From: Desulfurococcaceae archaeon
GTDB lineage: Archaea; Thermoproteota; Thermoprotei_A; Sulfolobales; Desulfurococcaceae
NCBI GenBank assembly: GCA_028275705.1
Contig: JAPWUD010000016.1
Coordinates: forward strand, 1-33,092
Direction of reading: 5' to 3'
Length of the DNA stretch: 33,092 bases
Position numbers and translations under genes: made by a program. The first letter of the stretch is position 1. The number at the start of each line of letters is the position of its first letter. The notes under the pieces were generated by a model that saw nothing but the letters and a program-made list of their open reading frames with translations, made no database searches and was not told the DNA's origin. This document shows, piece by piece, positions 1-10,197 of this stretch.

Positions 1-499
1 TGTAGTCTCTGCCAATGTAGTGCGTAGAGAACTCTATTGCTTGAACACCTGCTTTCTCAACTTTAGGTCCCAGTAGTGAGAGCTCTTCTGGTGTATATCC
101 AATACTCGCCATGAACACTACTCCCTTCTCCTCACAGTACTTCTTGACAACTGGATACTCTCTCTCCAAGTAGTGCTCTGCAGGTATATCACTCCATAGT
201 TCTGCATTGAGGAAGGCAAATACAAACCTATAATTGCCACTATCAGTGGGGATAACTCTCACATCCCCTGGCTTCATGGTCTTCAATATGTGTCCTCTAA
301 AAACCCCTCTATCAACTGCAGCCATACTTGGACGGGGAACTATAGCTGGCTTCACACTAATGGTTTTAGCTACAACCGCGCCGACTCCAGCATCTACTAG
401 TCCAATCATAGATTCTGCATCGCGGGATATAGGACACGCGGCATTCATTAGTGGGTTTTTTAGTTTCAAACTAGCTATTTCAACTGAGAGATCCACCAA
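1..499 (-). CDS. Dihydroorotate/dihydropyrimidine dehydrogenase-like protein, 3' end cut by window
   Basis: The first 166 residues are visible and the C-terminal half lies beyond the left edge. The N-terminus (VDLSVEIASLKLKNP, then an alanine/cysteine-rich turn) and the later LNAELWSDIP segment resemble the flavin TIM-barrel family of class 1 dihydroorotate dehydrogenase and the PreA half of dihydropyrimidine dehydrogenase. Members reduce or oxidise a pyrimidine ring using FMN. The KTISVKP segment sits where family members contact FMN. I place the start at TTG 499 because AAGGTG (505-510) sits 6 nt ahead and a TATA-like stretch lies near 536-547. The neighbouring hydantoinase and molybdenum hydroxylase genes favour a nucleobase-catabolic role over de novo pyrimidine synthesis, but that is inference. 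The catalytic base and any Fe-S domain cannot be seen. Confidence 0.75.
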   Translation of the reverse strand, partial: MVDLSVEIASLKLKNPLMNAACPISRDAESMIGLVDAGVGAVVAKTISVKPAIVPRPSMAAVDRGVFRGHILKTMKPGDVRVIPTDSGNYRFVFAFLNAELWSDIPAEHYLEREYPVVKKYCEEKGVVFMASIGYTPEELSLLGPKVEKAGVQAIEFSTHYIGRDY

Positions 500-551
500 G
501 ACACACACCTTTCAGTATTAAATACTTGGAGCGGAAGTATATAATATTTAC

Positions 552-847
552 AACCGAAAGCCTGCCTATCAAGGCGGGGATGGTGTAGAAAGGCTTATAA
601 ACTCTCTCATTTTGATTATTCCTTGGTGATGAGTTAATTGTAAGCTGTGGTTGCCCCTAAGCCCATGTGGGATGCGGGGTTTGCAACCACTAGGCAAATA
701 CACTATATGGGGGGATCTCTGACCACCCCGACTGCCCCGCAGAGGACAGATGTAGACCCGAATAGATGCGGGGAACCAGTGAACCGCTCAAAGGGAACCT
801 TCGCCCTTTAGAGCGGGGAGGAGGTCAGAACAATGGAAGCCTTCAAC
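552..847 (+). mobile_element. Protein-less IS200/IS605-like element (MITE) with probable omega-RNA-type structured RNA
   Basis: About 295 bp with no credible ORF. The possible left end follows TTTAC (547-551) and has a hairpin, CCTGCC/GGCGGG (561-566/573-578). A TATA-like CTTATAAAC (594-602) would start transcription near 622. The predicted RNA then has a long stem, GTGGTTGC/GCAACCAC (647-654/683-690) with nested C/G pairs, a second stem CCCCGC/GCGGGG (735-740/768-773), and a 12-bp stem with one bulge (784-795/804-816) followed by GGAGGAGGTCAG. The possible right end is TTCAAC at 842-847. Hairpin ends, lack of inverted termini and a terminal hairpin plus GGAGGAGGTCAG resemble archaeal TnpB-associated right ends. 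Exact ends and family are inferred. An unrelated structured ncRNA is the main alternative. Confidence 0.5.
622..833 (+). ncRNA. Predicted structured RNA inside the 552-847 element
   Basis: If the TATA-like box at 594-602 is used, a transcript would begin near 622 and include GTGATGA (626-632, identical to a C-box), three strong stems (647-690, 735-773, 784-816) and a purine-rich tail. The stems have near-perfect complementarity that chance would rarely give. It does not carry the GGAAGGGAGCA signature of SRP RNA, and I cannot match it to RNase P RNA. A TnpB guide (omega) RNA relic is the best guess. No D box (CTGA) is spaced correctly for a C/D sRNA. Confidence 0.4.
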
Positions 848-909
848 ATAAATAGAGGGACTCTGAGTATAGCACTAGAGTATTGTTAGTGGATGTTTAT
901 ATAGATATG

Positions 910-2175
910 TTATAAACCACCATAATGAATTCTTATAGTATTAGTTAACTCCTCCTCACTCGGGTTTACAGTGGGGGGCTCGCCAGTGATCTTCAGCGCT
1001 GTATCAATATCTTTTAATCCATGGCCTGTTACGAGTACAACTATAACTTCATCTTTATCAACTAGTTTTTCCTCAGTAGCTTTAATTAAACCAGCTAATC
1101 CAGCAGCTCCACTAGGCTCTGCAAACACTCCTTCTAGGCTAGCCAACAGCTTCATAGCATTTATGATTTCCCCGTCTGATACAACTACTCCATAGCCGCT
1201 TGTCTCGTAGAGAGCCTTCAACCCCATGTCTCCATCCCAGGGGTAAGTGTCCTCGAGACCCGTTGCTATTGTTTCAGGTGGTTTCTCCCATGGCTTAATA
1301 TTATGTGGGTCAGCACGCATTCTCCAAGCTCTCACCAATGGGTGGTTGCCTTCGGGCTGAACAGCTATGAGTTTCGGATAGCCATCAATGAACCCCAGTT
1401 CGTTAAAGTCTATAAACCCCTTGTATATACCAGTGAGTAAGCTCGCTGCACCGGTTGGGACAAAGACCTGGTCAGGTATACTCCAACTCAGTTGCTCCAC
1501 GATCTCCATTGATATAGTCTTAGGGCCCTCGACTTGGTATGGATTGAAAACCCCGAAGCTTGGGCTTGGGTAGAAACCATACTTCTCATATAGAATCCTC
1601 ATCATTTTAACAGTTGGATCTTCCGCCTCCAACCACCTGATCTTTATTACCTTAGCTCCATACATTAGCAATTGAGAAACTTTACCACTCGCAGCGAAGT
1701 GAGGTACGAGAGCGTAAACCTCTACTCCCGCCTTCGCTCCGTAAGCAGCTAGCGACGCAGCCGCATTCCCACTACTAGCTATTACGGCTCTCCTAAAGCC
1801 AAAGAACTTAGCCATCGAGATAGATACACTCATAGCTCTATCTTTGAAACTGCCCGTCGGGTTTCGAGTTTCATCTTTCAAATAAAGGTTTTTCAAACCA
1901 AGTTTCTCACCTAGTCTACTAGCCTTTAATAAGGGTGTTCCACCCTCGCCGAGCGTCACTACGTAGTCTCTACTGGGTACTGGCAGTAGCTCAAAGTATC
2001 TCCACATGTAGAATGACCTATGCTTCAACTCCTCTCTAGATAGAGACTTCGCTACCTCCTCGTAGTTGTAGTGTATATCGAGCCTCCCAAGATCCCTATT
2101 AATGCAGAGTAGTGGTTTCTCATCAAGAAAATAGCTCCTACCACACCGACTGCAGACGAGTTTCTCCACATACAT
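910..2175 (-). CDS. thrC: Threonine synthase-like PLP enzyme (fold type II)
   Basis: 421 residues, the usual length of archaeal threonine synthase. An N-terminal knuckle (C8, C11, C24) resembles the family's zinc-ribbon remnant. The PLP lysine is K111 in NPTGSFKDR, followed by the SSGNAAAS phosphate-cradle loop and a C-terminal VTGHGLKD segment. The classical reaction is O-phosphohomoserine to threonine. Related fold-II enzymes are threonine dehydratase and diaminopropionate ammonia-lyase. It starts 78 nt downstream of the carbamoyltransferase on the same strand and may be co-transcribed with it. Next to a carbamoyltransferase and a hydantoinase, a lyase-type catabolic role is possible, but the CxxC knuckle and the SFKDR motif favour true ThrC. 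No thrB or hom is visible in the window. Confidence 0.8.
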   Translation of the reverse strand: MYVEKLVCSRCGRSYFLDEKPLLCINRDLGRLDIHYNYEEVAKSLSREELKHRSFYMWRYFELLPVPSRDYVVTLGEGGTPLLKASRLGEKLGLKNLYLKDETRNPTGSFKDRAMSVSISMAKFFGFRRAVIASSGNAAASLAAYGAKAGVEVYALVPHFAASGKVSQLLMYGAKVIKIRWLEAEDPTVKMMRILYEKYGFYPSPSFGVFNPYQVEGPKTISMEIVEQLSWSIPDQVFVPTGAASLLTGIYKGFIDFNELGFIDGYPKLIAVQPEGNHPLVRAWRMRADPHNIKPWEKPPETIATGLEDTYPWDGDMGLKALYETSGYGVVVSDGEIINAMKLLASLEGVFAEPSGAAGLAGLIKATEEKLVDKDEVIVVLVTGHGLKDIDTALKITGEPPTVNPSEEELTNTIRIHYGGL

Positions 2176-2253
2176 GGATACTCAACCAATAGTGAATTCT
2201 ACAGTAAGACTAAGGATATGTGGTAATAAAAATAGTAAAAAAGAGTAATAGGA

Positions 2254-3327
2254 CTACTCACCCATCACCATTGCCATAACCGCCTTCTGGACGTGGAGCC
2301 TGTTCTCAGCTTCCTCAAAGTAGAGGCTCTTCTCGTATGAGTCTAATACTTCATCTGTTACCTCCTGCCCTCTATCAGCTGGACCACAGTGCATGTAGAA
2401 TGGCTTCCCAGCTTTCTCAAGTCTCTCCCTGGTTACGATCCAGTCTTTGAACTTGTCTTGGTAAGCTTTAGCTCCTTCTTTATCAACTACGTTATTGTAT
2501 GGTGGGAAGAACTTCTTAGGGCTCCAAGCCTTGGGGTATACTATGGTTGCACCCTCAAAAGCCTCATCCATGTTATACACTACCTTGAACTCGCTTCCCC
2601 AGTGCTCTGCGTACTTCTTAGCTACAGCAACTGCTTCATCCATTAACTCAAAGCCAGGTGGGTGTGCAATATAGACATCTGCACCCATCATAGCAAACAT
2701 AGCTGCCACGTCTTGCGGTACAGCAAGCGGCTTTAATCCACCACTATAGGCGTAGCTAACGACTACCTTCTTACCCCTCAGATCGCTTGGCCAACCCAGT
2801 GCCTCGAATCCAGCCATTGCATCTGCGAGAGACTGGAATGGATGCCATATATCGTCCTCCATGTTTAATACTGGTATGTCAGCCCACTTAGCGAATTCAT
2901 TTATGATCCTGTGTCCTCTACCAATAATCCACTTTGCAGCGTCTCCATAGATCCTTATTGCTATTGCATCTCCATATCTACTCAAAACTCTCGCAACGTC
3001 GCTAATGGCCTCTGTTTGATAGGGGATCATGTCTTCGGGTAGTGTTGGGGCATATACTTGGTCTGGGCTGATGTATATACCGTGTCCTCCGAGCTGGTAT
3101 ATTCCCGTCTGGAAGCTATTTCTTGTTCTAAGGCTCTTATTGTAAAATATCATGTATAGCGTCCTACCATGAAGCCAGTCTACTCTCCTAACGCCACTGT
3201 GGAATAGTTGCTTGAGTTCTCTAGCAGCCTTGAGAACTAGTTTAATAGTGTCTATATCGTAGTCGTAGTTTGACAACCAGTCTTTACCTTTGAGGTAACC
3301 TACAAACCATGGTTTATGCCTACTCAT
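2254..3327 (-). CDS. Knotted carbamoyltransferase, N-acetylornithine carbamoyltransferase-like
   Basis: 357 residues. The carbamoyl-phosphate motif SLRTR is at 65-69, with HPFQ at 162-165 in place of the usual HPCQ/HPTQ. A proline-containing loop (about 195-204) lies where the AOTCase/YgeW group forms its protein knot. KAW (266-268) matches the lysine-containing site of AOTCase. The C-terminal segment EEAENRLHVQKAVMA is strongly AOTCase-like. The family transfers the carbamoyl group between carbamoyl phosphate and an amine, or the reverse in catabolism. The usual HCLP motif reads HCGP (313-316), a change at the side-chain-binding position. The true substrate (ornithine derivative, ureide, oxamate or similar) cannot be read from sequence. 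It diverges from the small gene at 3430 around a symmetric TATA box. Confidence 0.85.
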   Translation of the reverse strand: MSRHKPWFVGYLKGKDWLSNYDYDIDTIKLVLKAARELKQLFHSGVRRVDWLHGRTLYMIFYNKSLRTRNSFQTGIYQLGGHGIYISPDQVYAPTLPEDMIPYQTEAISDVARVLSRYGDAIAIRIYGDAAKWIIGRGHRIINEFAKWADIPVLNMEDDIWHPFQSLADAMAGFEALGWPSDLRGKKVVVSYAYSGGLKPLAVPQDVAAMFAMMGADVYIAHPPGFELMDEAVAVAKKYAEHWGSEFKVVYNMDEAFEGATIVYPKAWSPKKFFPPYNNVVDKEGAKAYQDKFKDWIVTRERLEKAGKPFYMHCGPADRGQEVTDEVLDSYEKSLYFEEAENRLHVQKAVMAMVMGE

Positions 3328-3379
3328 ACATTACACGCCTCGAAATACCTTTAAGCCGATAATATCCGGGACTTGAGTA

Positions 3380-3385
3380 TTTAAA
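3380..3385. promoter_or_regulatory. Symmetric TATA box (TTTAAA) between divergent genes
   Basis: TTTAAA is self-complementary. It lies about 25 nt from plausible transcription starts on both sides: near 3409 for the small gene (+) and near 3355 for the carbamoyltransferase (-). One TFB/TBP site could therefore serve both directions. This position is inferred from spacing only. Confidence 0.4.
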
Positions 3386-3429
3386 CTTTTACCATGATTA
3401 CATTTATTGACAACATTACTGGGGGGATT

Positions 3430-3699
3430 ATGAAGTGCATTTTAAGTAAAGACAGGAAGACTATACTAATTCGGGAGGTTGTAAACCACGTCTACGTTGA
3501 AAGAGTGATCTACGATTTAAACCCTATCTTACTCTCGAAAGGTTATAATCCAATATACTACTTTGAGGGGTCTCCACAGATTAGTGAGGGTGGATTAAGC
3601 GTCACTATTAAATTATCAAAGGAGTTAACAAGTGAGGATTGGTTATTTGTGAAGCGATTAGTTGAATTAACAGGTTTCAAAACAATTGAGGGAGGGTGA
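3430..3699 (+). CDS. Small protein of unknown function (89 aa)
   Basis: I do not recognise a family. The start is placed at ATG 3430 because a G-run (3421-3426) sits ahead of it and the TATA-like TTTAAA at 3380-3385 would start the transcript near 3409. That start point falls downstream of the other ATG at 3394. The protein is soluble-looking, alternates beta-like and charged segments, and ends with a probable amphipathic helix (LTSEDWLFVKRLVELTGF). It diverges from the carbamoyltransferase and converges with the cysteine-synthase-like gene, 11 nt apart. A regulatory or accessory role in the island is possible but unsupported by any motif. Confidence 0.6.
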   Translation: MKCILSKDRKTILIREVVNHVYVERVIYDLNPILLSKGYNPIYYFEGSPQISEGGLSVTIKLSKELTSEDWLFVKRLVELTGFKTIEGG

Positions 3700-3710
3700 G
3701 GGAAACACTT

Positions 3711-4718
3711 CTATATACTCAGCTCCTCTAGTATGGTTTTACGAGACGCTATTTCACGCTTCTTCTTAAATAACCTCGTACTAAAGTACCTGGCTGCGTA
3801 GTCTGGTAGAATAGTTACTACTTTATCCTCCCTCTTCATATTATGCTTCCTCGCGAGGGCTATAGCAGCCACTACATTTGCCCCAGAGCTAATACCCACT
3901 GGGAGGCCTTCTAGCCTAGCTATTTGCCTAGCCATGTTTATTGCATCATCACTTGTAACAGTTACGAAGTCGTCTAGAAGATGCCTATACCTAGCCACGA
4001 TATCTGGTATAAAGCCATCTCCCACGCCCTCTATTTCGTGTCTACCATATGGACCAGGCTTACCTGTTCTAAACCACTCCGCGGCCACGGGGCACTCAGC
4101 TGGCTCTGCACCCGCAACTATAACATCCCTACACTCCTCCTTAAGCCTCTTAGCCACACCCATTAATGTACCTCCAGTCCCGATTTCAGCTACAAAAGCC
4201 TTTGGACAACCAATCTGCTCTATTATCTCCCTCCCGGTAGTCTCGTAGTGGGCTTGTACATTGGCTTCATCACTCCACTGGTCGAATAAGTAGTACTTAT
4301 CCGGGTTCTCTGCAACTATTTTTCTCGCTGTGTCTAATGCGTATCCAGCATCAGCCTCTCCACCAGGTGTGAAGTAGAATTCCGCGCCAAAGAGCTTCAT
4401 TAACATAAATCTCTCAGCACTCATCTCCTCGGGTATTACAATTAACACTTTAAAACCCATAACGCTAGCTAGAGATGAAAATGCTATCCCTGTGTTACCC
4501 GTGGTGGGTACCACGATTGTCATCCCCGGTTTTAACTCGCCTCGCTCAATAGCCTTCCTCAACATGTACAATGCCATTCTATCTTTAACGCTCCCCGTCG
4601 GGTTCAAGAACTCCATTTTACCCCAAATCTCGGCTTCTACATCACCTGGCTTAACTCTATTTAGTAAAATAACAGGTGTTCCACCTATACACTCAGTTAT
4701 ATCCCTACACACCTTCAC
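3711..4718 (-). CDS. cysK: Cysteine synthase / cystathionine beta-synthase family PLP enzyme
   Basis: Fold-type II PLP enzyme of about 335 residues. It has the N-terminal ECIGGTPV element, PLP lysine K45 in NPTGSVKDR, the loop TTGNTG (72-77; TSGNTG is commoner), a GTGGT phosphate-binding loop and a GISSGAN segment near the C-terminus. Family members make cysteine from O-acetyl- or O-phosphoserine, or catalyse related beta-replacement reactions. The start is put at GTG 4718 because GGGTGGTC lies just upstream; GTG 4736 would add six residues. A TATA box (TTTATATA read on + at 4756-4763) places the transcript start near 4734. No serine acetyltransferase or sulfur genes are nearby, so the substrate is open. 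Confidence 0.85.
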   Translation of the reverse strand: MKVCRDITECIGGTPVILLNRVKPGDVEAEIWGKMEFLNPTGSVKDRMALYMLRKAIERGELKPGMTIVVPTTGNTGIAFSSLASVMGFKVLIVIPEEMSAERFMLMKLFGAEFYFTPGGEADAGYALDTARKIVAENPDKYYLFDQWSDEANVQAHYETTGREIIEQIGCPKAFVAEIGTGGTLMGVAKRLKEECRDVIVAGAEPAECPVAAEWFRTGKPGPYGRHEIEGVGDGFIPDIVARYRHLLDDFVTVTSDDAINMARQIARLEGLPVGISSGANVVAAIALARKHNMKREDKVVTILPDYAARYFSTRLFKKKREIASRKTILEELSI

Positions 4719-4784
4719 ATAGACCACCCCTGCCACACTACAATATCAATTGGAATTTATATAGATTAAGGACTCTCCAATAAC

Positions 4785-4795
4785 AAATTTATTAA
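4785..4795 (+). promoter_or_regulatory. TATA-like promoter of the molybdenum hydroxylase operon
   Basis: AAATTTATTAA is centred near 4790, about 26 nt before a start point near 4816. This leaves a short leader that still contains the ribosome binding site at 4827-4832. The divergent cysteine-synthase-like gene has its own TATA box at 4756-4763 on the other strand. Confidence 0.45.
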
Positions 4796-4826
4796 CCCCG
4801 CCCATCTCTCAAATACTTAACAAATA

Positions 4827-4832
4827 GGTGAT
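4827..4832 (+). promoter_or_regulatory. Shine-Dalgarno GGTGAT that marks an AUA start
   Basis: GGTGAT is perfectly complementary to the archaeal 16S 3' end (GATCACC). It ends 5 nt before ATA at 4838. No ATG, GTG or TTG in the correct frame lies between the in-frame stop at 4829 and ATG 4910, so this site supports translation starting at ATA 4838. Confidence 0.6.
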
Positions 4833-4837
4833 GTGCT

Positions 4838-5716
4838 ATATTCGATCTATACAAGCCCTCAAGCCTGGAAGATGCATCGAGATTTCTAGCAAGTAATTAT
4901 CCTGAAGCAATGCCATTGGCTGGTGGAACAGAGCTTTTGATACTAATAAGGGATAAGAGAATTAAGCCCCCTAAATACCTCGTAGACATTTTGCGATTTA
5001 GAGACCAACTAAGTTACGTGAGGCTGGAGAATGGCTATGTAAAGATAGGTGCTTTAGCAACGCCTTGGGATCTATCGCAGAGTATACTACACAGAGATGA
5101 GAGGTTTGCTGGTTTTAGAGATGTTTGGAGTAAGTTTGGAACAATGTCACTTAGATTTATGGCTACAATTGGTGGAAACATAGCTACAGCTACTGACTTC
5201 AGCGACTACCTTGTACTACTACATGTATATAATGCGAGTGTGAGGCTTAGAGGGGTTAATGGCGAACGAGTTGTTCCACTAGAGAAGCTGATACTAGAGC
5301 GTAGGAAACCCGATTTAAAGCCAGGTGAGATCATTACTGAAGTATTATTCCCCGAGCCCCCGGTGGGGGCATCAAGCGCGTTCGAGAAGTTTGATCGTAG
5401 GAGCATCTTAGTAGCAGGCTTAGCAAACTCTGCTTCATACATCCAGCTAGAGGGTAAGAGAATTATTGATGTAAGGATCTCCCTAGACACCACGGGGTTG
5501 AATAGGATTCCAGGGAGACTTAGGGAACTAGAGGATTACTTAAAGGGGAGGGAGTTCTCAGCTGAGTTAATTGAGAAAGCTGTTGAGGAGGTTATACCGA
5601 GAAGTGTTGCGAAGTATAGTGATTGGTGGGCTTCTGGAGAGTACAGGCTTGAAATGACAAAGGTTTCTGTTAAGAGGTCTCTACTTAAGGCTTGTAAGAG
5701 GCTTGGGGTGGTGTAG
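4838..5716 (+). CDS. Molybdenum hydroxylase, FAD-binding subunit (CoxM/XdhB type), apparent AUA start
   Basis: 292 residues from ATA 4838, the normal length for this subunit. The two FAD loops are AGGTELL (28-34) and TIGGNIATATDFSD (110-123), followed by the C-terminal domain of the family. It passes electrons from the [2Fe-2S] subunit through FAD to an acceptor. The first conventional start (ATG 4910) falls inside the conserved PLAGGT motif, so it cannot be the true start. The 24 residues upstream (FDLYKPSSLEDA and on) fit the family N-terminus. A one-base indel between ATG 4831 and this frame is the alternative explanation. It is the first gene of a three-gene operon and its stop is 1 nt from the next start. 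Confidence 0.85.
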   Translation: MFDLYKPSSLEDASRFLASNYPEAMPLAGGTELLILIRDKRIKPPKYLVDILRFRDQLSYVRLENGYVKIGALATPWDLSQSILHRDERFAGFRDVWSKFGTMSLRFMATIGGNIATATDFSDYLVLLHVYNASVRLRGVNGERVVPLEKLILERRKPDLKPGEIITEVLFPEPPVGASSAFEKFDRRSILVAGLANSASYIQLEGKRIIDVRISLDTTGLNRIPGRLRELEDYLKGREFSAELIEKAVEEVIPRSVAKYSDWWASGEYRLEMTKVSVKRSLLKACKRLGVV

Positions 5717-5717
5717 A

Positions 5718-6254
5718 GTGCGGGGCTTACATAGGGTTAAAATGAGAGTTAATGGGAGAGACTACGAGCTAGAAGTACCTGGGCACGAGAGACTACTTGA
5801 TACACTCCGCTATAGACTAGGCTTCACTGGTGTTAAAGAAGGTTGTGGTAGAGGCGAGTGTGGTACTTGTATTGTGCTAGTTAATGGTGAGCCGAGAAAC
5901 TCTTGTTTGACTCTAACAGCTAGACTAGATGGAGCCGAGGTGACAACTATTGAGGGTATTGCACCACCTGGAAAACTACATGCTATTCAAGTTGCATTTA
6001 TAGAGACTGCAGGTGTCCAGTGTGGATTCTGCACTCCTGGATTCATAATGGTGGCTAAGGCTTTGCTAGATAGAAACATTGATCCAAGCGAGGAGGAGAT
6101 AAGGAATTGGCTTACCTCTGTTCTATGCAGGTGTGGAAGCTACCACTTGTACATTGACGCTGTGAAGAAGGCGTCTGAGTACTTGAAAAAGGGTGTTGTT
6201 TTCATTGATGAAAGAGATGTCAGGGAGAAGCTACACTTGAGGGTTGTGGGGTGA
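5718..6254 (+). CDS. Molybdenum hydroxylase, [2Fe-2S] subunit (CoxS/XdhC type)
   Basis: 178 residues with two [2Fe-2S] domains. The plant-ferredoxin-like cluster uses C43, C48, C51 and C63. The helical C-terminal cluster uses C102 and C105 (CGFC) and C137 and C139 (CRC). All eight ligands are present. It relays electrons from the molybdopterin centre to the FAD subunit. The start is placed at GTG 5718 because GGGGTGGTG at 5705-5713 lies just ahead, inside the end of the upstream gene; ATG 5742 is possible but has a weaker site. The C-terminus runs about 20 residues past the usual end of the family. It is followed 6 nt later by the large subunit. Confidence 0.93.
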   Translation: MRGLHRVKMRVNGRDYELEVPGHERLLDTLRYRLGFTGVKEGCGRGECGTCIVLVNGEPRNSCLTLTARLDGAEVTTIEGIAPPGKLHAIQVAFIETAGVQCGFCTPGFIMVAKALLDRNIDPSEEEIRNWLTSVLCRCGSYHLYIDAVKKASEYLKKGVVFIDERDVREKLHLRVVG

Positions 6255-6260
6255 TCCCGC

Positions 6261-8666
6261 GTGAGTAGACCCAACTATGTTGAAATAGTTGAATCTATAT
6301 TCCACAAGACTAAACACATTAAGACAAGTGAATTCAAGTATATTGGTAAAAAAGTTGTGAGATGGGATGCAATATCCAAGGTTGCTGGGAGACCCATATT
6401 TACAGCCGACTTATTCAACTTAGTGAAGAACCCTGTTTTCGTGTATAGTGTAAGGTCTAAGTATGCACACGCGAGGATCAAGAGTATAGACACCTCAGAT
6501 GCAGAGAGATATCCGGGTGTTATAAGAGTCTTCACATCGAGGGATGTACCGGGGATTAACGACATTGGATATGTAATACCAGATCAGCCAATGCTAGCAG
6601 ATAGGAAGGTAAGGTATATTGGCGATACAGTAGCACTAGTAGTGGCTGAGTCCCTTGAAAACGCTAGGGATGCAGGAGAATTGATTAGCGTAGACTACGA
6701 GCCACTACCCGTCTACCTAGACCCACTCCAAATAGTCGACTTTGAGACATTGCGGGAGAAGGAGCACGTGTTGATTCACGATGAGAGAGGTACAGACATA
6801 CTTACAAGGTATAGAATTAGAGTTGGAGATGTTGAGAAGGCATTTAAAGAGGCATCAGTGATCGTGGAGAACGTTTATAGTACACCTGCACAGGAGCATG
6901 CATACCTAGAACCCGAGGCAGCACTCGCTATCCCGGAGCCCGATGGTAGTGTAACAATATATGTTAAAACACAGTGCCCATTCGATGTTAGGAGGGCTGT
7001 GAGTAATGTACTTGGATTACCATACCACATGATCCGAGTGATAGCTCCAGCACTAGGTGGAGGATTCGGAGGAGCCGAGGACGTTGGAAACGAAGTTGCA
7101 GCTAAATCCGCACTAGTAGCCCTAGCGCTCAAGAGACCCGCTATAATTATCCACACGAGGGAGGAGTCTACAATATCCCATACAAAGAGACACGCGATGA
7201 AGGCGTACTATAGGCACGCCGCCGGTAGAGATGGTAGACTATTAGGGGTGGAAGCCCGCATAGTGCTAGATACCGGGGCATATGCCAGTCTAGGGCCATT
7301 TGTCGCTTGGAGGGCAACAGTCCACAGTACTGGACCATACAGAGTTGAAAACGCTAGAGTGGACCTTGTAAACGTATACACTAATAAAATACCAGCAGGT
7401 GCATTCAGAGGATTTGGCAATCCACAGGTACACTTCGCAGTAGAGAGGCAAATGGATCTACTAGCGGAGGAGCTTGGGTTAGACCCCGTTGAATTCAGGT
7501 TGAAGAATATATTGAGAAATGGTGATAGAACAGTTCATGGTCAACTACTAGACCACGGGGTCGGCTTAGAAGAAGCAATTAAGCGAGCGGTTGAACTAAG
7601 TAATTACTATGAGAAGAGGAAATTATACGAGTCAATGGATGGTGTAGTTAGAAGGGGTATTGGAGTAGCAGTAATGTATCATGGAAACAGCATTGGAGCT
7701 GAGGGTGCAGACTACTCAGCTGTCTCAATAATAATCAATAGAGATGGAAGTATAACATTTAGATCTGGAACAACGGATATGGGTCAGGGCTCGATCCAGA
7801 GCTTATTAAACATTGCCGGAGAAGTTCTCGGAGTACCACTAAGCTACTTCAAGGTTGAACTACCAGATACAGCGTCGGTACCTGACTCAGGCCCCACAGT
7901 AGCCTCTAGAGTTACTGTTATGACTGGTAATGCAACACTAGTCGCGGCTTATAAGTTGAGGCAGGGGCTTAATGCTCTAGCATCTGAAATGCTTGGCTGT
8001 AGAAGCCCTGATCAAGTGGTGATCGAGGCTCCAAGAGTATACTGCATTGACAAACCCGAGAAGTACATTACTTGGAGAGAGTTAATTGAGCAAGCATTCT
8101 GGAAGGGTATACCACTACAAGAGTATGGATACTTCAGGGCTCCTCCAGCTGAGTGGCATGATGAGACAGGCACTGGACAACCATACTTCACATATACCTT
8201 TGGCGCGATTGTAAGCGAAGTAGAAGTCGACTTAGAGACCGGTATTACTAGAGTACTGGGGGCGACAACAGTATATGACATTGGTAGAGTAATCAATAGA
8301 GTTGGAGCAGAACTACACGCTATAGGCGGGTACGTACAGGGAATGGGTTATGCGCTAACAGAAGACACGTACTACTCACCAGATGGAAAACTTCTGAATC
8401 CGAGTTTCTCAGCATATCACATACCCACAGTACTGGACATACCGGGTAAAATCAACGTAGACTTCGTAGAGGCGGGGTTTGTGAGGGGACCATTTGGTGC
8501 AAAGGGTCTTGGAGAGCCGTCAATAGTTGGGATAGCCCCGTCAATAGCGAACGCCATTGCCCATGCATTGAGGCAGAAGAGGGCAAAGTATGGAGTAAAT
8601 AAAATACCAGTAACGCCTGATTTTCTCTACGAGGTTATAAAGAAATACGAGTTAAAGAAACAATAG
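6261..8666 (+). CDS. Molybdenum hydroxylase, molybdopterin-binding large subunit (xanthine/aldehyde dehydrogenase type)
   Basis: 801 residues. The hammerhead domain begins near VRWDAISKVAGRPIFTADL. Cofactor-binding signatures follow: GGGFGG (266-271), GAFRGFGNPQ (from 380, including R383), MGQG (Q509), and the catalytic glutamate E752 in AKGLGEPS. The carbon monoxide dehydrogenase loop AYRCSFR is absent, so this is not CoxL. The substrate may be a purine, another N-heterocycle or an aldehyde. The arginine of FRGFG is shared by purine and aldehyde enzymes, so it does not decide. GTG 6261 has the full Shine-Dalgarno GGGTGATC across the preceding stop. No maturation gene (XdhC/MobA-like) is visible nearby. 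Confidence 0.92.
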   Translation: MSRPNYVEIVESIFHKTKHIKTSEFKYIGKKVVRWDAISKVAGRPIFTADLFNLVKNPVFVYSVRSKYAHARIKSIDTSDAERYPGVIRVFTSRDVPGINDIGYVIPDQPMLADRKVRYIGDTVALVVAESLENARDAGELISVDYEPLPVYLDPLQIVDFETLREKEHVLIHDERGTDILTRYRIRVGDVEKAFKEASVIVENVYSTPAQEHAYLEPEAALAIPEPDGSVTIYVKTQCPFDVRRAVSNVLGLPYHMIRVIAPALGGGFGGAEDVGNEVAAKSALVALALKRPAIIIHTREESTISHTKRHAMKAYYRHAAGRDGRLLGVEARIVLDTGAYASLGPFVAWRATVHSTGPYRVENARVDLVNVYTNKIPAGAFRGFGNPQVHFAVERQMDLLAEELGLDPVEFRLKNILRNGDRTVHGQLLDHGVGLEEAIKRAVELSNYYEKRKLYESMDGVVRRGIGVAVMYHGNSIGAEGADYSAVSIIINRDGSITFRSGTTDMGQGSIQSLLNIAGEVLGVPLSYFKVELPDTASVPDSGPTVASRVTVMTGNATLVAAYKLRQGLNALASEMLGCRSPDQVVIEAPRVYCIDKPEKYITWRELIEQAFWKGIPLQEYGYFRAPPAEWHDETGTGQPYFTYTFGAIVSEVEVDLETGITRVLGATTVYDIGRVINRVGAELHAIGGYVQGMGYALTEDTYYSPDGKLLNPSFSAYHIPTVLDIPGKINVDFVEAGFVRGPFGAKGLGEPSIVGIAPSIANAIAHALRQKRAKYGVNKIPVTPDFLYEVIKKYELKKQ

Positions 8667-8677
8667 TGTTTTAAATC

Positions 8678-10015
8678 CTAAACCTTTTCTTTTACTAATT
8701 CCCCTATATATACACCCCATCCGGGTTCTCCAACGAGCTCCCCTTTCTCAATTAATACCTTCCCACCGACGACTAGATGTAGTGGTGCACCATAGAATTC
8801 AAACCCCTCCCATGGGGTCCAATCTACTTTGTGGTGGTGATTTCTAGAGGAGATTAAGCGCTTTCTCCTAGTTTCAAGAATATACAGGTCTGCTCTAGAG
8901 CCAATAGCTAACTCTCCAATAAATGGATAAACTCCAAGTATCTTAGCGGGGTTTCTCGAGAAGACGTCTATGAATACTTCCAGGCTAATTCTCCCCGTTA
9001 AAACACCCATAGTATATAGGAATGGACCCATGATCTCGAGGTTTGGAATGCCACCCCAAGCACTCCAAGTATCAACATTCTTCATACTCCTCGGAGCTGG
9101 GGCATTATCACTCACGTATGCGTCTATTAAACCCTTGTTTAAGCCAATCCATAATTCCTCAATATCCTCCCTAGTCTTCAGTGTTGGTGCGAGCTTTAAG
9201 TAATTGCCATACCTCCTAGATTCCTCCCTGGTAAAGTACAAGTGGTGTGGGCAAACCTCACTAGTAATACTTACCTTGTTCTCTCTAAGCCACTTAATAG
9301 CGCTAAGCCCCATTCCACTAGATAAATGCGCTATGTGAACGCGTACTCCAACTTCGAGAGCATATAATCCAACTCTAAGTACTGCAGATGCCTCAGTCAA
9401 CCCTGTTCTACTAGAGTGGTACGCTACTACATCATTAATCCCTTTGTACTTTGACTCTCCATACGATATTAAATCATCATCTTCAGCGTGGAATATGGCA
9501 ATAGCATTATTCCTCTTTACTTCCTCTAATGCAGGTATTAATGAATCGTCTTCAATCTTAAATGGTCTACAAGTGAAGAATTTAAATGTCTTCACACCCA
9601 TTGATCTAAGCACGGAGATAGATCTGTAGTTTGATTTATTAATGAAGCCACCTGTAATACCGTAATTTACATAGGAGCGACTTCTAGCCTCACTTAACTT
9701 ACGCTCCACAATACTTGGATTATCAACGTATACTCTTAAAGGCATATCTATAATTGTTGTAAGGCCACCGTAAGCCCCTGCGAGAGATCCTGTACTCCAG
9801 TCCTCATTCTCCAAGTACTCTGGGTCGTACACATGGGCATGTAGATCTATACCACCAGGTATAATTAACTGACCCTCTCCATCGAGAACAACGTCTCCAG
9901 TATAATCTCTTCTCCCAATAGACGTGATCAATCCATTCTCAACAAGAATATTGCCCTCAAGTAGTGAACCCTGAATAGGGATCTTTACATTCCTAATGAC
10001 GAGAGATTCAACCAA
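8678..10015 (-). CDS. Dihydropyrimidinase / hydantoinase / allantoinase-like amidohydrolase
   Basis: Cyclic amidohydrolase of about 445 residues. Counting from GTG 10024, all binuclear-metal ligands are present at family spacing: H62 and H64 (LHAH), the carboxylated lysine K148 (TFKFF), H179 (FHAEDD), H233 (IAHLSS) and D306 (SDNAP). These enzymes open cyclic amides such as dihydropyrimidines, hydantoins or allantoin. SDNAP in place of the dihydroorotase TDHAP argues against a pyrimidine-synthesis role. TTG 10015 is preferred because AGGTGA (10021-10026) ends 5 nt ahead of it; GTG 10024 lies inside that site. A TATA box near 10060-10072 supports a start point near 10041. It converges with the Mo-hydroxylase operon, 11 nt apart. 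Confidence 0.88.
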   Translation of the reverse strand: MVESLVIRNVKIPIQGSLLEGNILVENGLITSIGRRDYTGDVVLDGEGQLIIPGGIDLHAHVYDPEYLENEDWSTGSLAGAYGGLTTIIDMPLRVYVDNPSIVERKLSEARSRSYVNYGITGGFINKSNYRSISVLRSMGVKTFKFFTCRPFKIEDDSLIPALEEVKRNNAIAIFHAEDDDLISYGESKYKGINDVVAYHSSRTGLTEASAVLRVGLYALEVGVRVHIAHLSSGMGLSAIKWLRENKVSITSEVCPHHLYFTREESRRYGNYLKLAPTLKTREDIEELWIGLNKGLIDAYVSDNAPAPRSMKNVDTWSAWGGIPNLEIMGPFLYTMGVLTGRISLEVFIDVFSRNPAKILGVYPFIGELAIGSRADLYILETRRKRLISSRNHHHKVDWTPWEGFEFYGAPLHLVVGGKVLIEKGELVGEPGWGVYIGELVKEKV

Positions 10016-10197
10016 GTCACTCACCTAGAATAATCTGTATGTGATGAAAATATAACATTGATTTATTTATATCAGCGATCGAAGACTTCTTCATGCGATC
10101 AGACAAACCCCGCCATCATCACACTTCTACTAGTACTTTTCATTATATGGGGTCTATTAAAAGTATATTCGTGTCACCATGGTGTTTATTAAAAACG

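Follow-up and report, generated by a model that had tools for sequence, protein, structure and literature searches.

The question raised by the first 10 kb of contig JAPWUD010000016.1 of a Desulfurococcaceae archaeon (GenBank assembly GCA_028275705.1) is what common function could bring together a flavin-dependent reductase, a knotted carbamoyltransferase, two fold-II pyridoxal phosphate (PLP) enzymes, a three-subunit molybdenum (Mo) hydroxylase and a hydantoinase. The window, that is, the whole stretch of 33,092 nucleotides analysed, is the entire contig (C19 in our numbering) of a 1.47-Mb genome, G000, which is 98.9% complete. An earlier note on this DNA proposed that these genes cooperate in the breakdown of a nucleobase or ureide with recovery of carbamoyl phosphate, and this idea seems right in outline, considering the co-occurrence of the genes in relatives, the xanthine-type pocket of the Mo enzyme and the finding of a carbamate kinase gene. 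The genes resemble an almost complete set for the anaerobic fermentation of purines, and we interpret the locus as an archaeal variant of the SsnA-type reductive anaerobic purine (urate) degradation pathway, with a probability of about 0.75. Gene content, linkage, coinheritance, the phylogeny of SsnA and key residues were observed; from them we infer every reaction and substrate, and also how two carbamoyltransferases (CT1 and CT2), and likewise the two PLP enzymes, would share the work.

The island exceeds the window, since it spans C19 and two abutting contigs, C12 and C27, and has in addition a carbamate kinase gene elsewhere in the genome. The first 127 bases of the window are an exact reverse complement of the first 127 bases of C12, and overlaps of this sort are typical leftovers of assembly graphs. 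The gene of the dihydroorotate dehydrogenase (DHODH)-like flavoprotein, a putative UacX-like purine-ring reductase, is truncated in the window because it runs off the contig end; its N-terminal 169 amino acids lie at 2–508 on the reverse strand and the remainder on C12 (L070:1–840), giving about 406 amino acids in total. C12 also contains CT2, which is a second knotted carbamoyltransferase, a PnrA/Bmp-type ATP-binding cassette (ABC) transporter and a deaminase which runs on into C27, where an adenine deaminase (478 bits, over cut-off) stands beside an aminohydrolase of the SsnA family. An exact overlap was sought between C12 and C27 and none was found, the split deaminase being short of about 1 residue between the contigs. 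The joins C19-C12-C27 are supported by the related genome G004, which has the identical gene order on one contig: SsnA, adenine deaminase, deaminase, transporter, CT2, DHODH-like, ThrC-like, CT1, CysK-like, XdhB, XdhC, XdhA, and hydantoinase. The carbamate kinase, which the earlier note had not seen and for which it had advised a search of the flanks, was found on contig C39 of the same genome (376.5 bits against a cut-off of 358). The eight genes listed in that note were all confirmed as open reading frames with clear family matches. The hydantoinase gene reaches slightly beyond its span of 1–10015, to 10024; it described one knotted carbamoyltransferase, and the island has two.

A neighbourhood comparison in relatives, which had also been recommended, was carried out by scoring the orthologues of eight families (CT1, CT2, SsnA, DHODH-like, ThrC-like, CysK-like, XdhA, and hydantoinase) in 61 genomes. 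Among the 48 genomes at least 90% complete, 19 had all eight families, 24 had none and only 5 had a partial set. Carriers and non-carriers occur among close relatives: inside the genus, G000, G003, and G004 are carriers and G002, G005, and G007 are without all eight, and in another genus G016 is without them all while its close relatives have them. The genes are retained together even when they are scattered, as in G024, where they are unlinked; in Zestosphaera and its kin, on the other hand, CT2, CT1, carbamate kinase, SsnA, DHODH-like, and ThrC-like genes form a compact run of six. CT1 orthologues were detected in 36 of 398 Thermoproteota genomes and in 19 of 164 genera, belonging to families f1, f2, f12, f21, f25, f37, and f41. 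In the distant families f12, f25, and f37, and less completely in f21 and f41, the genes of CT1, CT2, carbamate kinase, ThrC, and CysK cluster again, and several of these loci also have XdhABC and SsnA. It might be thought that the island is a mosaic of modules, in which purine salvage and oxidation (xanthine dehydrogenase (XDH), adenine deaminase, and transporter) lie beside a module for the fermentation of ureides or amino acids (carbamoyltransferases, carbamate kinase, and PLP lyases) acting on another ureido compound. In some genomes the genes are indeed distributed over two or three loci (XdhBCA-CysK; CT1-carbamate kinase-SsnA-DHODH; CT2 elsewhere) and G011 keeps everything except XdhA and CysK. 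However, the eight families are jointly present or absent, XdhA and hydantoinase included, and joint clusters occur in distant families, so we regard the mosaic as improbable.

The phylogeny of SsnA agrees with a purine route. The archaeal proteins form one clade, with some long branches, which is sister to bacterial SsnA including that of E. coli (support 100/100) and stands apart from GuaD and neighbouring deaminases. A ring reductase is linked to it: in many relatives the DHODH-like gene adjoins SsnA, and it belongs to the island of the genome studied here. The tree of the DHODH-like proteins themselves has an unresolved base. By family names alone, this reductase and the hydantoinase could be taken for PreA and dihydropyrimidinase of the reductive pyrimidine (uracil) pathway, with a carbamoyltransferase splitting N-carbamoyl-beta-alanine with recovery of ATP. 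PRK08318 PreA is the best NCBIfam match of the full-length G004 orthologue (209 bits), dihydropyrimidine dehydrogenase (DPD) is the closest solved structure and the hydantoinase scores 224 bits as a dihydropyrimidinase. Nevertheless, the PreA-type catalytic Cys (NxSCP loop), checked by alignment, is absent from the DHODH-like protein, in which the loop EFSTHYIG replaces NFSCPQ of E. coli PreA and NLSCPHG of pig DPD. This FSTHY motif is close to LSTHY of the SsnA-linked Chloroflexota DHODH-like proteins and to LSTMH of YgfK. The protein has two 4Fe-4S motifs in its C-terminal part and is without an FAD domain. An identity as uracil reductase was rejected, the Cys loop of PreA being missing and the loop being like that of SsnA-linked reductases; the parallel with PreA drawn earlier does not hold, and of the known routes the SsnA-dependent reductive urate pathway is the nearest. 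Moreover, SsnA, adenine deaminase, and an XDH with a purine pocket lie in the same neighbourhood, and two fold-II PLP enzymes would have no role in uracil breakdown; uracil degradation is thus an unlikely function of the island.

The cyclic amidohydrolase (8678–10024, reverse strand) is a putative hydantoinase similar to HyuA, with 27% identity to the E. coli protein and no NCBIfam cut-off reached. Residues H62, H64, K148, H179, H233, and D306 align with those of E. coli HyuA, so that the full set of metal ligands claimed for it is present. Its orthologue is found in 24/24 near-complete CT1 carriers.

The Mo hydroxylase is encoded on the forward strand by XdhB, the FAD subunit (4832–5716; PF00941/PF03450), XdhC, the 2Fe-2S subunit with the usual Cys clusters (5703–6254; PF01799/PF00111), and XdhA, the Mo-binding subunit (6261–8666; PF02738/PF20256/PF01315; PucD 511 bits, XdhA 494). 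It had been described as complete; all three genes are there, but the reading frame of the FAD subunit, in comparison with G004, begins about 26 conserved residues late, as the frame offers no standard start codon for this N-terminal part. The frame is open upstream at 4832–4910 (+) (CAIFDLYKPSSLEDASRFLASNYPEA) without ATG, GTG, or TTG, the first standard start being at 4910, and the probable cause is a non-standard start codon or an indel of one base close to the start. In XdhA, E273 and R351 align with Glu232 and Arg310 of Rhodobacter capsulatus XDH, which we take to have roles in purine binding, and the catalytic Glu752 is also present. This Glu/Arg pair of the xanthine pocket is not found in the hydroxybenzoyl-CoA enzyme nor in E. 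coli XdhA or XdhD. XdhA therefore looks like an enzyme with a purine pocket of the classical xanthine dehydrogenase type. That the Mo enzyme might be aldehyde-specific, which the earlier note would have counted against its proposal, does not agree with the retention of this pair, and an identity as aldehyde oxidoreductase was rejected, the pocket being of purine type. Two further observations concern this enzyme family. A second Mo-hydroxylase locus in the same genome (C33:4227–11678) contains a homologue of the hydantoinase (29%) and two of XdhA (46% and 33%), and has counterparts in families f4 and f9, both without SsnA and CT1. In G004, XdhA (L036 10053–12949) is broken into open reading frames of 136 and 558 amino acids, possibly by an assembly error.

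CT1 (2254–3327, reverse strand; PF02729/PF00185) has a knot-type loop, YAYSGGLKPLAVPQ, which aligns with WAYSPSYGKPLSVPQ of YgeW. The two proteins are 33% identical and have in common the motifs KPLAVPQ, YPKxW, and HCxPAD, which are clearest in the divergent members L163–L165; CT2 has its own conserved versions of the three. An AlphaFold model of CT1, based on an alignment of 10 rows, had a mean predicted local distance difference test (pLDDT) score of 51.5, too poor for a fold search, and was not used. A role of the carbamoyltransferase in ornithine biosynthesis, a second outcome which would have spoken against the earlier proposal, finds no support in these comparisons: CT1 is distinct from a separate gene similar to ornithine carbamoyltransferase (OTC) and recurs close to carbamate kinase. 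In many relatives the two genes adjoin directly, or have a radical S-adenosylmethionine (SAM) gene and one uncharacterised gene between them, with SsnA and the DHODH-like gene next. At L171 7785–9625 an uncharacterised protein of about 300 amino acids (a relative's copy had no Pfam match) and a radical-SAM protein are encoded upstream of carbamate kinase, an arrangement which recurs in several relatives, and in G010 (L168 12298–13428) a gene similar to S-methyl-thiohydantoin desulfurase (S-Me-THD) lies between SsnA and carbamate kinase.

The M20 ureidase YgeY has no orthologue in this genome, nor in several complete carriers, though some relatives have one. In G010 an M20 orthologue with 33% identity to E. 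coli YgeY stands beside ThrC-CysK-DHODH. At the orthologue level, the 17 genomes with YgeY all carry pathway genes. Considering that CT2 occurs in all but one near-complete CT1 carrier while YgeY is patchy, we propose that CT2 can replace YgeY and yield a second carbamoyl phosphate, a substitution which we infer from the distribution of the two families.

The two PLP enzymes have invited an anabolic explanation, in which threonine synthase, cysteine synthase, ornithine or acetylornithine carbamoyltransferase (AOTC), and an aldehyde-type Mo enzyme were simply gathered. The NCBIfam names point that way: the ThrC-like protein (910–2175, reverse strand; PF00291) is named threonine synthase by PRK08197 with 328 bits, over the cut-off, the CysK-like protein (3711–4736, reverse strand) is named cysK with 300 bits, and CT1 scores 237 bits as AOTC, 202 as OTC, and 155 as YgeW (cut-off 453), the three values for CT1 being below cut-off. 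However, no homoserine kinase (thrB) was found above cut-off in the genome, and seven relatives (G002, G010, G022, G025, G033, G037, and G057) have a separate ThrC, about 40% identical, near homoserine kinase. The motifs are also changed, with SSGNAA, FGVFNPYQ, and VPTGAAS against STGNTS, NSVNPYR, and VPVGNAG in true ThrC. For these three reasons it is very unlikely that the ThrC-like protein is a threonine synthase. Taking into account the separate OTC-like gene, the coinheritance with SsnA and XDH and the purine-type pocket of XdhA as well, the anabolic explanation, kept open before, was rejected as having almost no chance of being correct. The ThrC-like and CysK-like families accompany the pathway, and in several lineages (G010, G013, and L088) their genes lie side by side; the CysK-like gene, here a divergent neighbour of the xdh operon, adjoins DHODH-ThrC in other lineages. 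The previous comparison with YgeX has to be corrected, both PF00291 enzymes being ThrC-like or CysK-like and not YgeX. One of the two, for which the ThrC-like protein is a candidate, may be a lyase of 2,3-diaminopropionate or a related amino acid.

In the purine pathway that we propose, the PnrA-type transporter would import purine nucleosides or bases, and the adenine deaminase and the second deaminase would convert them to hypoxanthine or xanthine. XdhABC would act on the purine, whose ring would be reduced by the UacX-like flavoprotein, probably in a ferredoxin-dependent manner, SsnA would open the pyrimidine ring to give a ureido-hydantoin and the hydantoinase would open the second ring to give 2,3-diureidopropionate. 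CT1 and CT2 would each release one ureido group as carbamoyl phosphate by phosphorolysis, from which carbamate kinase could form up to 2 ATP, and one of the two PLP enzymes would eliminate ammonia from 2,3-diaminopropionate to give pyruvate. The phosphorolysis of both ureido groups, with two carbamoyl phosphates and two ATP per purine, in company with lyases derived from ThrC and CysK, is the more tentative part of this scheme, to which we give somewhat less than even odds. It is possible that 2,8-dioxopurine is formed by XdhABC working in reverse or by another Mo hydroxylase, such as the XdhA homologues of C33, or that a different 8-oxopurine is the substrate instead.

Several points weigh against a urate-type pathway. 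The urate-to-yanthine step has no clear enzyme, because XdhA has no Glu at the position aligned with Glu606 of XdhD and resembles a classical xanthine dehydrogenase; no XdhD-type urate reductase was identified. The archaeal SsnA scores 344 bits against a curated cut-off of 444, which the Chloroflexota proteins pass, so surveys by family models may miss it. The best matches of CT1 and CT2 are to N-acetylornithine carbamoyltransferase, and no cut-off is reached. A single PLP enzyme would suffice, but there are two, and G011 has all the other families without XdhA and CysK. Finally, the Fisher P values for co-occurrence, down to 6e-14 across the order and from 0.001 to 8e-5 inside the family, take no account of phylogeny and serve as an indication only.

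Two further features lie between the genes of the window. At 709–841 (+), between the DHODH-like and ThrC-like genes, there is a sub-threshold match to the Rfam HgcC RNA family RF00062 (32.9 bits, gathering 50, E 5.8e-6), and two relatives, G034 and G026, have similar sequence in a total of three stretches. At 3394–3699 (+), between CT1 and the CysK-like gene, a 101-amino-acid open reading frame without family match clusters with reading frames in two other loci.

By comparison with the reductive urate cluster of E. coli, xdhD-ygfM-ygfK-ssnA-hyuA-ygeW-yqeA-ygeY-ygeX (Li et al. 2025, PMC12507026), the archaeal set likewise has an SsnA-family aminohydrolase, a Mo hydroxylase, a putative hydantoinase, a YgeW-like knotted carbamoyltransferase, carbamate kinase, a fold-II PLP enzyme, and a flavin/Fe-S ring reductase travelling together, and in G010 it even has MocA-like and XdhC/CoxI-like genes near the hydantoinase-Xdh cluster. 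It differs in having a DHODH-only UacX-like reductase for YgfK, ThrC/CysK-like enzymes in the probable place of YgeX and CT2 in that of YgeY, this genome being without YgeX and without a YgeY orthologue, and in having a three-subunit Xdh with a classical xanthine pocket and no Glu606 of XdhD. The urate cluster of Clostridioides difficile (UacX, UacY; Li et al. 2025) also pairs SsnA with a PydA/DHODH-type reductase without FAD domain, probably ferredoxin-dependent, whereas the archaea have carbamoyltransferases and carbamate kinase instead of the hydrolase UacY. Chloroflexota SsnA clusters carry a putative F420-dependent reductase of the luciferase family as replacement (Li et al. 2025, PMC12507026), and similarly, in those loci of f25 and f37 in which we saw no DHODH-like gene, a PF00296 protein is near SsnA, ThrC, or CysK. 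In some Chloroflexota and Acidobacteriota loci ThrC-like or CysK-like genes stand beside SsnA, as in archaea, but, unlike the archaeal loci, the bacterial SsnA genes examined had no carbamoyltransferase or carbamate kinase gene closer than 10 kb. With the reductive pyrimidine pathway (PreTA and dihydropyrimidinase) the island shares a homologous reductase and cyclic amidohydrolase; it departs from it by the missing catalytic Cys loop and by the additional purine and PLP genes.

The reductive urate pathway became known from gut bacteria in 2025, and the SsnA survey of Li et al. (2025, PMC12507026) was limited to bacteria and does not mention archaea. Percudani (PMC12990295) regards the pathway as confined to anaerobic bacteria and, on the question of an ancient origin or a recent adaptation to the gut, inclines to a recent one. 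Our search of titles and abstracts, in which few subscription papers were covered, gave no earlier archaeal report of anaerobic urate or purine degradation. The related gene set in Thermoproteota and the deep archaeal SsnA clade suggest that the pathway is old or wider, and not a gut invention, and the arrangement with two carbamoyltransferases could be an older form related to the source of the urate pathway of gut bacteria. The island brings two unassigned families of carbamoyltransferases and two re-purposed PLP enzymes, and makes the question of an ancient or recent origin testable. If our interpretation is true, anaerobic hyperthermophiles would gain a purine-based source of ATP.

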